Counted from the first letter of the stretch, positions 15,447-23,518 are shown. The stretch: 34,492 nucleotides of DNA from Deltaproteobacteria bacterium (GCA_005879605.1 VBKE01000306.1:1-34492), one strand, 5' to 3'. The notes: generated from the sequence alone by a model not told the origin. Program-made: numbers and translations.

Positions 15447-17102
15447 TTATTGCCGGGCGCCACGCACTTGATCAATGATTTCTGCAGCATTGGCGGGCAC
15501 CGCATCGCCGCGCCATGCCACGTGCCCGTCGGGACGAACCAAAACCAAGGGGCGCTCGTATACCTCCCGCACCTGAAGCTCATCCAAAGAAACGATATCG
15601 AGCGGCAGGCCAGCCTGTCTTGCCGCATCGGTGAAGGCGGAGCCGTCGATGCCTTGCGATGAAAGAACCAGTAACGTAAAGCCCTTGCCGAATAGATCGA
15701 GCGTGGAACGGCCATCCCGCAGCCAGACGTGGGGCGCGCGGACTCCAGGCCATGTCGAAGGAACATAGAGACCGTGATCTAAGGGGGGCGGCGGACTGCC
15801 ATCAGACACACAAATCCGCGAGTTCTCATAACGGTAGCCCAGTTCGATGCCGGCTGAGTCGTGCTGAAACTCTTTGGCGCGGGTGCGAAGAATGACCGCG
15901 CGCGCTTTTTCTCGCAGTCGATTTCCTTCTTCGCCGTCTTCTTCGAGCAGGGGCGAGAAAGGGATTTGGCTATCGAACCCCGCGCGCATCTCTCCCGCCT
16001 CGGTCACGTTGATCATCCCGACGGGCCGACGCTCCAGTCCGTAGCTGTCCAGCAAGCGCGGCCCTCCCCAGCCTTGGAGCACCGCCGCCAGTTTCCAGCC
16101 GATATCTACCGCGTCGCCAACTCCGGTATTCATGCCGAAGCCGCCAGCGGGCCATAGAAGATGCGCCGCGTCACCGGCGAGAAAAACACGCCCTTGCTGA
16201 TAACGTTCGGCAACCAGGCAGTGGCCCGTCCATGGACGCACGGCCAGAAGTTCGAACGGAATGTTTTCACCCAGCGCATGGCGGAGCTTCTCCGGCGCGT
16301 TGAGCGAATCCAAATGTTCTTGGCGGACGCCTCGAATGTTCAAACGCCACAACTCGCTCCCATCCACGGCGGCGATTGCCCCCTGGATTTGCGCATTGAT
16401 GATTTGATATTGCACCGCCGGACCGTGACGGCTCACGGACAACAGCGGCGCGCGGAACAGGACCGCGACGTTCATTCCCTGGGCAAAAACGCCTTGCAAC
16501 TGGATGCCCAACCGGTGCCGAACGCTGCTCTTGCCGCCGTCGCAACCCACCAGATAATCGGCCTCGATCCTGGTCGGTTGTCCGGTTTGGGTATCGACGA
16601 TTTGGGCGGTGACCTTTTGTCCGTCTTGTTGGAAAGACTCGAATGAAGTTCGGTAGCGAACCTCGACTGTGGGCAGAGTGCTTACGTGCTCGTGGAGTAC
16701 CGGATCAAAGTAGGGTTTTGAGATCCAGAGCCTGCCTTCCGGGCTGTAGGGGGAGCGGGAAGCGGGATCGCCATTGGCTGGATGATCGAAGCGCGCCACT
16801 TCATAACCATTCATGCGCGTCACGAAGACATAATTCCGGGGATAATCGGTTGGATAACCGGAGTCGTACCGCATTCGGTCGGCCAAACCCCAACGGCGCA
16901 GGTGTTCGCAAGTTCGAGTATTGGCAAGGTTGGTGGTCGGGAAGTCCACGGTGCCGTCGCCTTGTTCGACCACGAGGCAGTGGATCCCGCGCCAGCCTAA
17001 CTCGATGGCTAATGCCAATCCAACGGGCCCGCCTCCCGCGATCAGTACTGGATAACGTTTTAGTCCAGCCGGATTTGCCGTTGAGACATTCGAGTCAGTC
17101 AT
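15447..17102 (-). CDS. FAD-dependent monooxygenase (PheA/TfdB-like)
   Basis: This 551-residue flavoprotein has the FAD motif GGGPVGLALA (23-32), the NAD(P)H/FAD motif DYLVGCDGGKSSVR and the second FAD motif VFLAGDAAHLLWPAGG. A C-terminal thioredoxin-like segment follows. The whole matches class-A aromatic-ring hydroxylases of the phenol/3-(3-hydroxyphenyl)propionate type. The substrate is not assignable. The start is ATG at 17102, with AGAAAAGACC ahead; an earlier in-frame start at 17126 is less likely. It lies 155 bases downstream of ferredoxin B on the same strand, and may or may not belong to that cluster. Confidence 0.88.
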   Translation of the reverse strand: MTDSNVSTANPAGLKRYPVLIAGGGPVGLALAIELGWRGIHCLVVEQGDGTVDFPTTNLANTRTCEHLRRWGLADRMRYDSGYPTDYPRNYVFVTRMNGYEVARFDHPANGDPASRSPYSPEGRLWISKPYFDPVLHEHVSTLPTVEVRYRTSFESFQQDGQKVTAQIVDTQTGQPTRIEADYLVGCDGGKSSVRHRLGIQLQGVFAQGMNVAVLFRAPLLSVSRHGPAVQYQIINAQIQGAIAAVDGSELWRLNIRGVRQEHLDSLNAPEKLRHALGENIPFELLAVRPWTGHCLVAERYQQGRVFLAGDAAHLLWPAGGFGMNTGVGDAVDIGWKLAAVLQGWGGPRLLDSYGLERRPVGMINVTEAGEMRAGFDSQIPFSPLLEEDGEEGNRLREKARAVILRTRAKEFQHDSAGIELGYRYENSRICVSDGSPPPPLDHGLYVPSTWPGVRAPHVWLRDGRSTLDLFGKGFTLLVLSSQGIDGSAFTDAARQAGLPLDIVSLDELQVREVYERPLVLVRPDGHVAWRGDAVPANAAEIIDQVRGARQ

Positions 17103-17257
17103 GGTCTTTTCTCCGCTAGCGTACAAACGATACTCAGCGAGCGGCGCGATTCACAAAGCTGAAATCAAACACCTGGCTAGGCGGTATTTTGTTGTTAACG
17201 CCGCCGAGGCTTTTTTTACGATCGGCCGTCCGCGATAGCCAAAGTCAATGGGAATAG

Positions 17258-17467
17258 TTATGACGTGACGCCGGTGGGATCGTACTCTATGAGCGCGCCC
17301 GGCGCCGGGCAGTAAGGCAAACAGTCTTCACAGCCCGTGCATTGATGCTCAATGACTTCGTACATGTGGTGGATGTCTTGCAGTTTTGGATGGATGGCGG
17401 CCTCCGGACAGACTTCTCGGCAGAGGCCGCAGGCGATGCAGAGAGCTTCTTCAATTCGCATTTTCAT
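17258..17467 (-). CDS. Ferredoxin B, 2[4Fe-4S] type
   Basis: This 69-residue protein has two complete four-cysteine motifs, C10-x2-C13-x2-C16-x3-C20-P and C43-x2-C46-x2-C49-x3-C53-P, the classical bacterial 2[4Fe-4S] ferredoxin pattern. It should carry electrons in the cytoplasm. It starts 12 bases after ferritin-like protein B, and both run in the same direction, which suggests that this ferredoxin serves that protein. Confidence 0.9.
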   Translation of the reverse strand: MKMRIEEALCIACGLCREVCPEAAIHPKLQDIHHMYEVIEHQCTGCEDCLPYCPAPGALIEYDPTGVTS

Positions 17468-17479
17468 GTCGAACTCATC

Positions 17480-18220
17480 TCAAGCTGAGCCACCCAGCGC
17501 CCGGCTTGGCTCCGACACCCAGGGTCTGAGCAGGAAATCGAAGACCTCTTCAATGGGCTTTTGATCTTCCGGCGTGAGCGCATAGGCGTCGATCTGATAC
17601 TTCCCTTCCATAAAATGCATCATCTCTTCGGCTTCTTGGCTGCGCAGCTGGTGGCGGATCAGAGAATCGTCGATGACGCTGAGCGTCGCGGAGATTCCCA
17701 GGCAGGCCATCGCTTCGATGTAATAATGCTGCCCCGCCCGCGCCAGCGGATGGATGTGCGGAAACATCGCGGTCATCCCGAAGTAGGAGAGCTTGGGCTG
17801 CGTGTTTGCTCGCGCGTCGTTCATCAGCTCTTCTTCACGCTTGATCCAGCCGCCGCGGAGAAGCACGTCCGCGTGCAGTTGGCCGTGCTTGACCTCATCC
17901 CAGATCTGACGCGCGCGCATGCGCTGAAGATCGATGTATTTCGACTGCTCGTCAACCGTGACGGAAAGAATCTGGGTTGACATTTGCTTGATTGACATGA
18001 AGGGTCCCTCGGCCGCGTATCCAGCCCGAGCCCGCGCCGCCTTCCACTCGTCACTTACCGCTTTGAGATCCTGCTCGGCGGATTGAATCGCCTGGGTGAC
18101 AAGCTTATCCCAGGGCGGGATGCAGCGCTCAGTCTGGCGCAAGCGAAAATCAACTCCCGGGCCGCTGAAACCCGTGGGGTAGACCCACTTATCTAAAAAA
18201 TCTTGTAAAAGCGGCTGCAT
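17480..18220 (-). CDS. Ferritin-like diiron protein B
   Basis: This 246-residue, mostly helical protein has two ExxH motifs of the diiron-oxygenase/ferritin-like type: E109-V-K-H112 (DEVKHG) and E199-M-M-H202. Glu169 (YYIEAM) is exactly 30 residues before E199, the family spacing. The matching residue about 30 before E109 is Gln79, and the nearest acids are E71 and E91, so the first-helix carboxylate is unclear. The protein has no name I recognise. Its pairing with a ferredoxin suggests an oxygenase or reductase function in a PaaA-like role, but this is inference. It starts with ATG at 18220 after a GGAG. Confidence 0.65.
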   Translation of the reverse strand: MQPLLQDFLDKWVYPTGFSGPGVDFRLRQTERCIPPWDKLVTQAIQSAEQDLKAVSDEWKAARARAGYAAEGPFMSIKQMSTQILSVTVDEQSKYIDLQRMRARQIWDEVKHGQLHADVLLRGGWIKREEELMNDARANTQPKLSYFGMTAMFPHIHPLARAGQHYYIEAMACLGISATLSVIDDSLIRHQLRSQEAEEMMHFMEGKYQIDAYALTPEDQKPIEEVFDFLLRPWVSEPSRALGGSA

Positions 18221-18244
18221 GCAAATCTCCTTGCGCTTTACATG

Positions 18245-18535
18245 TTATGCACGTTTCGGCGCCGCGGTACGTGGCCACCGCATTTCCTCGGTCCACACTT
18301 CGGGAGGCGGAGGAACCAGCGATCTCCCGCTATTTGCATCGACAATCGATCCTTCCGCGGGACAATACATGAGGCAAACGGTGCACTTCGGATAGATGCA
18401 TCGCTCGTCGATCTCCAAAAGATGCTTGGGCGTGGATGATACGATGACTGCGTTGATATCGATCTCACGACACGCCACATAGCACATGCGGCATTCGGTG
18501 CACTTCTCATGATCGATCTTCAAACCCGGCATCAT
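18245..18535 (-). CDS. Ferredoxin A, 2[4Fe-4S]-like with modified spacing
   Basis: This protein of about 96 residues (counted from ATG at 18535; GTG at 18541 is an alternative) has eight cysteines: C-x2-C-x2-C-x3-C in KCTECRMCYVAC, and a second group C-x4-C-x2-C-x3-C-P (CIYPKCTVCLMYCP). The first group ends in CREID rather than CP, and the second has an inserted pair of residues before its second Cys. The tail of about 30 residues is Pro/Trp-rich. It lies between the two ferritin-like genes and presumably feeds electrons to one of them. Confidence 0.85.
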   Translation of the reverse strand: MMPGLKIDHEKCTECRMCYVACREIDINAVIVSSTPKHLLEIDERCIYPKCTVCLMYCPAEGSIVDANSGRSLVPPPPEVWTEEMRWPRTAAPKRA

Positions 18536-18564
18536 GCTCACTGACCTTGGCTACGTTGACCTGC

Positions 18565-18624
18565 GGCTTGAACGATTCGAACGGCTTGAACAGTTCCAGT
18601 CTTCAAATGGTTCAAGGTTGAACG
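18565..18624. repeat. Degenerate GTTCAA/TTGAAC-type short repeat
   Basis: The gap between ferritin-like A and ferredoxin A contains repeated CTTGAACG, TTCGAACGG, CTTGAACAG and GGTTCAAGGTTGAACG words spaced by about 10 bases. They could be a decayed tandem array or hairpin-forming repeats in the mRNA. Their role is unknown. Confidence 0.4.
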
Positions 18625-18632
18625 CGTTTGCA

Positions 18633-19382
18633 TCAATCGATATCGGCCGACACCATCACTTCTCCCGTCGTTTCCTCTTTTAACCCCAAGACAAACCGCG
18701 CGCCCTCTTCGAGAAAAAACAGGTAATCGCGCCGGGTTTCGGCGCACAGGCGCGTGGCCAGCTGCACGTCGACTTCCTTCTGTACAAAGCGCTCGACCTG
18801 AAAGCGACCCATGAGTATGTGACTCCGGGTTTCCGGAAGTTGGCTCATGAAGAGCGCGCGGATGGCATCGTCAGGAAACGAGCGTGCAAAGCGCTCCGTC
18901 CAAGCCAGCTCGATGACCTTCGGCCCGAGGTTCAAAGCGGCAATGCGGAGATTTTGCGGATAGTTGGCCAGCGCGCGAAGACAGAAGATATAGGCGCTCA
19001 CCCGGCTCGCCGTGGCAAACTGGCCGTAGGGATGTTCAAAAAATTTCCTTTGCGTGCGTACCCACCGGCGCCGGAGGATCTCGTCGAGATACTGCATTTC
19101 ATGGGTGGACTCATCGTAAATCTGCTTGCCGAATAGATAAGCCACGGCGGGCGGATAGTCGTTCAAGTTGATGCCTTGAGCCCAACCGCCGTAGACGTAA
19201 TACATGAGGCGCTTGAGGGTCCACAAACGACTCACGAGCCGAAAACATTGATCGGCCGTGAGACGTTCCTGGCGCGCCGCATCCAATACGGCGTCCATCG
19301 GCGTCATGGAGGCCTCGCGCTCGCTTTGGCCGAGCAGACTCTGCGCGAGCGTGGTTCCGGGATGTTGATCCGAAGAACCCAT
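18633..19382 (-). CDS. Ferritin-like protein A (partial diiron ligand set)
   Basis: This 249-residue helical protein has E91-S-T-H94 (DESTHEMQYL) and a later E184-T-R-S-H188 pair, plus Glu158 in a helix (PKVIELAW). The second pair is E-x3-H rather than the canonical E-x2-H, and no first-helix acid is seen about 30 residues before E91. It therefore has the ferritin-like layout but an incomplete set, like the non-catalytic partner in phenylacetyl-CoA epoxidase. Its ATG directly follows the TGA of the beta-propeller gene (no gap), which indicates translational coupling. It is not recognised as a named family. Confidence 0.6.
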   Translation of the reverse strand: MGSSDQHPGTTLAQSLLGQSEREASMTPMDAVLDAARQERLTADQCFRLVSRLWTLKRLMYYVYGGWAQGINLNDYPPAVAYLFGKQIYDESTHEMQYLDEILRRRWVRTQRKFFEHPYGQFATASRVSAYIFCLRALANYPQNLRIAALNLGPKVIELAWTERFARSFPDDAIRALFMSQLPETRSHILMGRFQVERFVQKEVDVQLATRLCAETRRDYLFFLEEGARFVLGLKEETTGEVMVSADID

Positions 19383-20492
19383 TCAGCTCGCCGCGAGCAG
19401 ACGTTCGTGCCCCTTCTTGGAAATCGGCGCGAGGCCGGACACGATGAGAGACCAGTTCTCGCCGCCGTCGTCGCTGCCGTAAACCTCGCCTCCCGTGGTG
19501 GCCGCGAAGACTGAACAGCCGCCGTTCCAGTCCTCGATGCACAACGCGCCGAACTCGTGCTTCAGACTGTTAGGGAGTCCTCCACCTAGTCGTTGCCAAC
19601 TCCGGCCGCCTTCCGCGCTGCGGTAGATTTGACCTCCGGCATAGGCGCTTTTGTGCCAGGTGGTAGGGTTGTGTTCGGCGGCGGCGACGAACATGAGATC
19701 CGGATTGCGCGGGCTCAAAACGAAGCCGTCCGGATAGACGTCCTCAGCCCAGTCGGGGCTGCTCCAGCGCTCCCAACGACTTCCGCCATCCAAGGTGACA
19801 TAAAAACCTGCTCCGCCCGTGACAAAGATTTTCTTCGGATCGCGCGGGTCGATGAGCGCTTTGTGAACGTCATAGAAATGCTCCGCGGGGCGGTCTTTAT
19901 CGCGGAAGAAACCCACGGCATTGACCTCGATCCAGCTCTTTCCTGAGTCCGTGCTTTTCAACAAGGCGCCCTGCTCGATGCAAGCATAGATGGTAGTCGG
20001 ATCTTGGGGATCGAAGGTAATAAACTTGGTGTGCGCGACGTGCGGGGGCGCGGGAAACGACCAGGTCGGCGCGCTCGGCACCGAGCGGAGCGTTGGCAGT
20101 TCTGTCCAGTGTTGCCCAAGGTCTTCACTACAGAAAAGGTGCGCGGGCTGTGTTCCCACATAGACTCGGACCTGGCCGTCGACAACCGTGGAGGCGAGGC
20201 TGTAAACGTCATCCATCGTTAGACCCTTGTCGCGGCGCTCCCAGGTTTTTCCGCCATCCGCGCTTGCATGAACGGAACCAAAGAAGGCGCCGGCAAACAT
20301 GAGACCACTCGTCCGCTCGAAGATAATGGAGCTGATATGCAGACCGCGGAGCGCGCGATGACTCACGCGCCAGGCCCGGTCGTCTAAACGCTCGAGAAGG
20401 ACCAAGCCGTCCTTTGTGGCCACCCAAAGTTGGCGCGATTGCTCCGACGATGAATACACGTTCGAACCGCCGTGAGAAAGTCCGATTGCCAT
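19383..20492 (-). CDS. Six-Asp-box beta-propeller protein (BNR/Ycf48-like)
   Basis: This 369-residue protein has six Asp-box motifs: SADGGKTW (77-84), SEDLGQHW (122-129), STDSGKSW (180-187), TLDGGSRW (233-240), SAEGGRSW (292-299) and SDDGGENW (340-347). That fits a six-bladed propeller of the sialidase/BNR or photosystem-II assembly factor Ycf48 kind. There is no signal peptide, so it is probably cytoplasmic, unlike most secreted BNR enzymes. No sialidase catalytic residues could be confirmed. Propellers of this type often act as assembly or scaffold factors for metalloproteins. A GGAGG site precedes the ATG at 20492. Confidence 0.8.
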   Translation of the reverse strand: MAIGLSHGGSNVYSSSEQSRQLWVATKDGLVLLERLDDRAWRVSHRALRGLHISSIIFERTSGLMFAGAFFGSVHASADGGKTWERRDKGLTMDDVYSLASTVVDGQVRVYVGTQPAHLFCSEDLGQHWTELPTLRSVPSAPTWSFPAPPHVAHTKFITFDPQDPTTIYACIEQGALLKSTDSGKSWIEVNAVGFFRDKDRPAEHFYDVHKALIDPRDPKKIFVTGGAGFYVTLDGGSRWERWSSPDWAEDVYPDGFVLSPRNPDLMFVAAAEHNPTTWHKSAYAGGQIYRSAEGGRSWQRLGGGLPNSLKHEFGALCIEDWNGGCSVFAATTGGEVYGSDDGGENWSLIVSGLAPISKKGHERLLAAS

Positions 20493-21733: not shown

Positions 21734-21915
21734 CATGAGCGGTGTTTTGTTTCGGGGAGATCCCACTGGGGACTATCAGTCCGAGGAAATAAGCGCGATC
21801 GGCAATTAAAGCTCATTCCAGCAAAGGCCATTGACCGGGCGGCGATTGGCGTTTACGATATCAACCACAAAAGCTCAGCATAATAACTGCATGATTTGCC
21901 GAGGAGGGTTTGCCC

Positions 21916-23040
21916 ATGAACGGATCACTGTATTGGCGCAAGCGCATTATCAATGTGTTTACGGTGGCAATTGTTTTTTGTGCCGTATGGGTCAGTGCCC
22001 TCCAAGCACAAACGACCGCTCCAAATCCCCTTCAAGGTCTGCGAGAGTTTCTTGCCCCTGCCATTAGCGTCCATCGGCGCCATTCCCATGAGCTGATGGC
22101 TGATCGGAATGTCGTCGGAACCGCCGTGGGACTCACAGCAAACAGGCAGCCGGCCATTAAGGTTTTTACCAGATCAGAAGCGATCATGAAGATTCCCACG
22201 AACCTCGAGGGTCTTCCCGTTGAGGTTGAAGTGACCGGCCCGTTTCACGCCTTGGGCGCGGCCGACAAGGAGGCTGCGCCGGAGGCGGTTCGTGTTCCGA
22301 CTAACCCGCGAGCTACTTTTCCCAGGCCGGTGCCCATTGGAGTTTCCACCGGAAATCAAAATGACGTCATGGTGATAGGAAAGAGTATTCGTTGCTCGGC
22401 GGGTACGATCGGTGCGAGAGTTACAGATTCTGAAGGGAAAGTATACGCTCTCAGCAACAATCATGTTTACGCCCTGGAAAACAACGCGCCTCCCGATAGC
22501 AGTATTCTCCAGCCGGGACTCGCCGATACTCGATGCCGCGTCAATTCCAATAACGTTATCGGCACACTGGCCTTCTTCGTGCCGATTGTATTCTCAGATT
22601 CCGCCAACAACACCGTGGATGCGGCGATCGCGCTATCCGATATTTCGCTTTTGGGCAACGCCACACTTCGAAGAGGTTACGGGACGCCTCAGTCGGCGAC
22701 TGTGTCAGCCTTTGTAGGTCAGAACGTGCAGAAATATGGTGAAACGACCCGACTCACACAAGGTCAGGTGACGGGAATCGACGCGACTGTTTTCGTCGAT
22801 TATGATTCGGGGAGGGCGCGATTTATTGATCAAATCATCGTTGGATCACGAAGCGCGTTTATTAAGGCCGGCGATTCAGGTTCGTTGCTCGTCACAAAAT
22901 CCGGAGTGAATCCGGTGAATCCGGTGGGCCTGCTCTTCGCAGGAGATAAAAGTGGCAGGACCGCGATTGCCAATCCGATAGCTCTGGTGCTGGGTGCTTT
23001 CGAGGCTTTCGGAGTCTCCATCTCCATCGATGGACAATAG
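21916..23040 (+). CDS. Secreted chymotrypsin-fold serine protease with N-terminal prodomain
   Basis: This 374-residue protein has a signal peptide (residues 1-32) and a segment of about 60 residues with 'VVGTAVG' and 'IPTNLEGLPVEVEVTG' motifs. A trypsin-fold domain follows with catalytic His183 (LSNNHVYAL), Asp235 (TVDAAIAL) and nucleophile Ser321 (GDSGS). The N-terminal segment resembles the whole of the small downstream protein, so it may be a prodomain or inhibitor-like domain. The start is ATG at 21916, with GAGGAGGG seven bases ahead; TTG at 21910 is an alternative. It is presumably exported and acts outside the cytoplasm. Confidence 0.82.
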   Translation: MNGSLYWRKRIINVFTVAIVFCAVWVSALQAQTTAPNPLQGLREFLAPAISVHRRHSHELMADRNVVGTAVGLTANRQPAIKVFTRSEAIMKIPTNLEGLPVEVEVTGPFHALGAADKEAAPEAVRVPTNPRATFPRPVPIGVSTGNQNDVMVIGKSIRCSAGTIGARVTDSEGKVYALSNNHVYALENNAPPDSSILQPGLADTRCRVNSNNVIGTLAFFVPIVFSDSANNTVDAAIALSDISLLGNATLRRGYGTPQSATVSAFVGQNVQKYGETTRLTQGQVTGIDATVFVDYDSGRARFIDQIIVGSRSAFIKAGDSGSLLVTKSGVNPVNPVGLLFAGDKSGRTAIANPIALVLGAFEAFGVSISIDGQ

Positions 23041-23164: not shown

Positions 23165-23518
23165 TTGAAAGCACCACTTACTTTGATAGCGCTGTTGCCG
23201 ATTCTACTTGCAACAATAACCTGCGGTTCCGAGGTCGGTTTACGGAATCGGGAGGAAACTCGCATGGCGGGAACGACAATTCAGGAAGCCCTCAAGCAGC
23301 ATACGGACCGTTTGATGGCGATTCCCGGTGTCGTCGGAACCGCCATCGGTGAATGCGACGGCAGTCCATGTATCAAGGTTTTCGTGGTGAAAAAGACCAC
23401 CGATATCATGAATAAAATTCCGTCGAAGCTGGACGGATTTCCCGTTGCGGTAGAAGAAACCGGCACCATTCGTCGACTCGAGGAAAAAAGAACAAGATCG
23501 CCGCAACATGGCGAATAG
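23165..23518 (+). CDS. Small protein homologous to the protease N-terminal domain
   Basis: This 117-residue protein is essentially a stand-alone copy of the N-terminal domain of the upstream protease: 'HTDRLMAIPGVVGTAIG' against 'HSHELMADRNVVGTAVG', and 'IPSKLDGFPVAVEETG' against 'IPTNLEGLPVEVEVTG'. The 5' part encodes a hydrophobic leader (LTLIALLPILLATITC), perhaps a lipoprotein signal, but the TTG start has no good ribosome site. ATG at 23264 follows GGGAGGA and would give an 84-residue cytoplasmic form. A dedicated protease inhibitor or chaperone is a reasonable idea. It lies on the same strand 124 bases downstream of the protease. Confidence 0.6.
   Translation: MKAPLTLIALLPILLATITCGSEVGLRNREETRMAGTTIQEALKQHTDRLMAIPGVVGTAIGECDGSPCIKVFVVKKTTDIMNKIPSKLDGFPVAVEETGTIRRLEEKRTRSPQHGE

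Follow-up and report, generated by a model that had tools for sequence, protein, structure and literature searches.

Heme-oxygenase-like diiron enzymes catalyze unusual reactions, namely, the formation of nitriles, alkenes, azetidines, and N-oxides. In the heme-oxygenase-like diiron oxygenases (HDOs; PF14518), the ligand motif is E-H-E-H-(D/E)-H, distributed over core helices 1 to 3. The ligands of AetD are D76xxH79, E140, and H172xxxE176xxH179 (PMC11611611). Reviewed HDOs require no protein effector (PMC13108848), and one published study describes MboA/MboB as possibly the first member of the class to have a redox partner of its own (PMC13185094). In PaaA/PaaC, a catalytic subunit is accompanied by a degraded homologous subunit, and the PaaA ligands are spaced E42-30-E72 and D126-29-E155 (PMC4498308). 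BoxB requires no structural subunit, and its partner BoxA is a single protein that carries two [4Fe-4S] clusters and FAD and uses NADPH (PMC4498308).

Here, we describe a locus in a 34,492-nucleotide stretch of DNA (the window) from a Deltaproteobacteria bacterium (GCA_005879605.1; VBKE01000306.1:1-34492). At its center is a conserved module of four genes, FerA-FdxA-FerB-FdxB, that as a whole is named by no profile library. We consider, with a probability of about 0.5, that the module encodes an undescribed non-heme enzyme of two subunits that activates O2, probably at a diiron site, and has electron carriers of its own. By analogy, FerA/FerB resembles PaaA/PaaC and BoxA/BoxB in plan, not in tested membership.

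Gene layout and distribution of the module

Five open reading frames lie on the minus strand in the order reported in a preliminary description of this locus, and their coordinates agree with it: a BNR/Ycf48-like beta-propeller (19383-20492, 369 aa), FerA (18633-19382, 249 aa), FdxA (18245-18541; 95 aa from the likely start near 18532), FerB (17480-18220, 246 aa), and FdxB (17258-17467, 69 aa). The genes are closely packed, as had also been noted; the propeller stop codon abuts the FerA ATG, and gaps of approximately 90, 24, and 12 nt follow. Orthologues point to the ATG near 18532 (MPGLKIDH) as the most likely start of FdxA, in preference to the GTG at 18541, which would yield 98 aa. When compared with an orthologue (74 to 87% identical), all five genes take most of their differences at third codon positions (first/second/third positions, 25/13/114 in FerB, 47/34/118 in FerA, 12/5/45 in FdxA, and 15/10/32 in FdxB) and are therefore real genes. 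The gap between FerA and FdxA (18543-18632) holds a short repeat with a 9-bp period (GTTCAAGCC-like), which has approximately 40 partial matches across the genome, mostly weak; similar repeats flank FdxA in another locus (L016).

Querying 84,980 species genomes with FerB alone returned eight loci, a count that comes mainly from a single-protein scan reaching close relatives only, and the true spread may be wider. The order FerA-FdxA-FerB-FdxB was identical at each of the eight loci where the contig permitted, with no competing arrangement, and the four genes form a conserved module. Both ferredoxin genes adjoin FerA and FerB at every locus with a long enough contig, and the survey of co-occurrence encountered no orthologues lying without these neighbors. 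Across 58 genomes, FerA and an untruncated FerB always occurred together; the one genome with FerB and no FerA (G002) has a contig that begins inside FerB.

The hosts are metagenome-assembled genomes (MAGs) labeled Deltaproteobacteria, an Immundisolibacteraceae MAG, a Gammaproteobacteria MAG of the same order as Immundisolibacteraceae, and a Chloroflexi MAG, in which the module sits on a short, low-coverage contig and may be misbinned. FerA and FerB are 53 to 66% identical between the window's family, the Immundisolibacteraceae, and the Chloroflexi MAG, with gene order kept. Within the window's family, FerB occurs in the window's genome and in 6 of 24 relatives. Searches of larger groups yielded no extra copies: the single find in each (1/297 in the window's phylum, 1/321 in the class of the Immundisolibacteraceae MAG, and 1/350 in the phylum of the Chloroflexi MAG) was the copy already known. 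No relatives were found on plasmids or viral contigs. A distribution this rare and patchy is consistent with horizontal transfer or repeated loss.

The beta-propeller adjoins the module in those loci of its own family that are long enough to show it. No propeller lies next to the Chloroflexi and Immundisolibacteraceae copies, and none is present in the flanks of L017 and L018. The propeller was rejected as a core member because copies outside the window's family have no adjacent propeller, and the earlier proposal that it helps to assemble the system is not upheld for the same reason. Two propeller paralogues in the same genome (L031:9147-10217 and L032:7656-8741; 53% and 43% identity) adjoin no FerA or FerB genes.

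The other neighbors vary. In the window they are an FAD monooxygenase, an M24 peptidase, and an amidohydrolase; at another locus (L020) they are CoA transferases and an enoyl-CoA hydratase, and at a third (L019) a beta-lactamase-fold protein. The enzyme probably uses O2 to modify a small molecule, and the nonconserved neighboring catabolic genes suggest an organic acid, an aromatic compound, or a CoA thioester; reading the substrate from the neighbors was rejected, as these genes differ in every lineage. The window's monooxygenase is an FAD-dependent aromatic hydroxylase-like gene (15447-17126; FAD_binding_3, PRK06126 type) located approximately 130 to 155 nt downstream of FdxB and followed by the peptidase and amidohydrolase genes; it lies beside the module nowhere else. 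Elsewhere in the window, positions 21910-23040 encode a protein with a Nal1 C-terminal/S64 trypsin-like signal, and a small ORF downstream of it (23165-23518) looks like the N-terminal part of that protein.

Putative metal-site residues and homology of FerA and FerB

FerB contains E109xxH112, E169, and E199xxH202, with 30 residues from E169 to E199, as described previously, and these residues are invariant in 8/8 orthologues. The invariant set also includes Q79, H116, Q195, and E198, although invariance alone is weak evidence, since the alignment is shallow and 28 of FerB's 59 D/E/H/Q positions do not vary in it. The set in FerA, earlier called partial, proved to be degraded as well. E158 and E184xxxH188 are invariant. 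Position 91 holds either E or D, Q takes the place of H94 in 6 of the 9 aligned rows, and T185 corresponds to FerB E199. The variation at E91 and H94 and the Thr opposite FerB E199 therefore make FerA look like a noncatalytic partner.

Profile alignment shows that FerA and FerB are homologues: the hhalign score was 36.4, compared with a mean of 17.6 and a maximum of 23.7 in 40 block shuffles. The alignment places FerB E109xxH112 over FerA E91xxH94 and FerB E198xxxH202 over FerA E184xxxH188.

Neither protein is named by any HMM library; Pfam and NCBIfam gave no match of note. Searches of PDB sequences with single proteins and with profiles returned nothing for FerB and one chance match for FerA (E, 1.1). 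PF14518, PF03070, and PF05138 (PaaA_PaaC) matched no member of the FerA or FerB families at E values up to 10. Scores of hhalign comparisons with 16 PF14518 and 19 PF03070 proteins from related genomes fell mostly within the shuffle range, and no link to either family that survived shuffling for both FerA and FerB was found. Comparisons with PaaA_PaaC proteins likewise stayed within the shuffle range, i.e., at background.

Predicted fold and ligand templates

AlphaFold2 models of FerA and FerB were built on alignments of only eight sequences. The FerA model reached a pTM of 0.79; the FerB model was weak (pTM, 0.62), and its residues 102 to 156, which hold E109 to H116, had pLDDT values under 50. 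All 50 Foldseek and VIA matches listed for the FerA model were heme-oxygenase-like (TenA, CADD, PqqC, PolF, BesC, AetD, and HrmI). Against the heme-oxygenase-like chains listed, Z scores were 12.3 to 15.1 over approximately 186 to 213 residues (rmsd, 3.1 to 4.2), a range into which other helical bundles can also fall, reaching a Z of approximately 14 according to the tool. PaaA_PaaC and ferritin-like chains were absent among the FerA matches listed, an absence that is no proof. MiaE, a tRNA hydroxylase, is ferritin-like, and it was the best Foldseek match of the weak FerB model, with a nonsignificant E value of 0.24. By Z score, however, the FerB model was closest to the HDO HrmI (7.9; rmsd, 4.3; 158 aligned residues), followed by TenA, CADD, and UndA, with MiaE lower at 5.4. 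A viral structure library gave no useful match. Helix breaks are predicted at E109 to H116 in FerB and at E91 to H94 in FerA, similar to the kink reported in core helix 1 of HDOs.

A heme-oxygenase-like fold for both proteins is likely. The label "ferritin-like" used in the preliminary description is doubtful, as the better model matches only heme-oxygenase-like folds among those listed and PF05138 gives no signal. That description would have been undercut had the two proteins belonged to different non-ferritin families; the fold may indeed be a non-ferritin one, but FerA and FerB appear to have it in common.

The ligand motifs leave the fold undecided, because FerB misses one residue per template. 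Against the PaaA set (E, ExxH, D/E, ExxH), the first Glu is Gln79 in 8/8 copies and the other five are present; against the HDO motif, five of six residues are found (E109, H112, E169, Q195, E199, H202), whereas Gln195 occupies the position of the alpha-3 His in all 8 copies, and H116 may stand in for that His. FerA lacks most of the HDO motif. FerB E109xxH112, E169, and Q195xxxE199xxH202 follow the AetD ligands in the same order and with similar spacing. The HDO-fold reading is favored because of this order, the helix breaks at the ligands, and the homology to FerA. In contrast to HDOs, the module has no PF14518 match and comprises two distinct subunits, of which one has a broken site, together with two dedicated ferredoxins; the Gln195 replacement, the weakness of the FerB model and its nonsignificant Foldseek matches headed by MiaE, and the FerA Z scores that other helical bundles can reach also weigh against an HDO assignment.

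A distant ferritin-like oxygenase of the PaaA/PaaC type, in which FerB would be the diiron subunit with Gln79 in place of the first Glu, FerA would be inactive, and the ferredoxins would correspond to the [4Fe-4S] part of BoxA, appears unlikely. The spacings Q79-30-E109 and E169-30-E199 mirror those of PaaA, PaaA and PaaC are only 17% identical, and FerA and FerB resemble them in this respect, and the MiaE match and the two [4Fe-4S] clusters of BoxA point the same way. However, no sequence link to PaaA_PaaC was detected, Gln79 replaces the Glu in every copy, the FerA matches listed are heme-oxygenase-like throughout, the fold is probably different, and neither a PaaB-like bridging subunit nor a PaaE-like flavin/[2Fe-2S] reductase was seen in the module at any locus.

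The closest folds to FerA by Z score among the matches listed are TenA, CADD, and PqqC; of these, TenA and PqqC do not depend on a diiron site. Together with the incomplete ligands of FerB on both diiron templates, this would suit a heme-oxygenase-fold pair without a diiron site that binds an organic ligand or tetrapyrrole, its ferredoxins feeding a reduction or a heme-oxygenase-like reaction. We regard this as improbable, since FerB retains five residues in AetD order and spacing plus the invariant H116, which a TenA-type enzyme would not need. Loss of the alpha-3 His could instead leave a mononuclear iron enzyme, and motif changes in FlcD do alter nuclearity within the superfamily (PMC11363339). 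FlcD, however, lost the last two motif residues, whereas FerB retains E199 and H202 and changes the preceding one, and H116 could supply the missing His; a single-iron site is more doubtful still.

Ferredoxins and the proposed enzyme

FdxA and FdxB consist of ferredoxin domains alone, and each has the two four-cysteine cluster motifs of 2[4Fe-4S] ferredoxins. In FdxA, the motifs are CTECRMCYVAC and CIYPKCTVCLMYC, the second being widened to CxxxxCxxCxxxC; all eight cysteines are conserved, PF12837 scores above its cutoff, and PF14697 scores just below. In FdxB, all eight cysteines are invariant in 7 copies, and PF14697 scores above the cutoff (43.4 bits). NCBIfam gave many sub-cutoff matches to the ferredoxins, none decisive. 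As in BoxA, electrons could pass via two [4Fe-4S] clusters, but here the carriers would be two small separate ferredoxins with no flavin domain, in place of a fused FAD/NADPH reductase. No NAD(P)H-ferredoxin reductase lies inside the module, which counts against the proposed enzyme.

In the two-subunit enzyme that we favor, FerB would be the catalytic subunit, binding two metals through E109, H112 (and/or H116), E169, E199, and H202 and activating O2. FerA, a homologue of FerB that has diverged and in which the site is broken, would associate with it in a structural or regulatory role. Electrons would pass from an unlinked reductase to FdxA and FdxB and then to FerB, and both subunits would most likely adopt a heme-oxygenase-like fold, as in TenA, CADD, UndA, and AetD, rather than a ferritin fold. 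We infer the fold and metal content of FerB, its pairing with FerA, the electron flow, and the use of O2. The two-component system with two ferredoxins put forward earlier thus stands as regards the homology of the two proteins, the near-complete site of FerB, the broken site of FerA, and the adjoining ferredoxins, but not as regards its ferritin-like label.

It is possible, though speculative, that the module represents the first heteromeric HDO, combining active and degenerate HDO-fold subunits, a relocated H116, and two dedicated 8Fe ferredoxins. In such an enzyme, H116 on helix 1 would take over from the His of helix 3, so that the ligand set would still comprise three His and three carboxylates. 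If so, the other diiron superfamily arrived at the PaaA/PaaC plan by independent evolution. The combination of a degenerate second subunit with two dedicated 8Fe ferredoxins would be novel, and a two-subunit HDO of this kind would show a route to a ferredoxin-fed, multi-turnover oxygenase in the superfamily.

PF14518 itself is strongly expanded in the window's bacterial family: the window's genome has 27 matches and one relative as many as 31, whereas matches occur in just 2 of the 14 control genomes. All 16 aligned PF14518 proteins of this family have HxxxDxxH. Two PF14518 genes of this family (at L046 and L054) adjoin a gene for a long protein with two CxxCxxCxxxC iron-sulfur motifs (CIGCHACTVAC), which may be a further case of an HDO that has an iron-sulfur partner.
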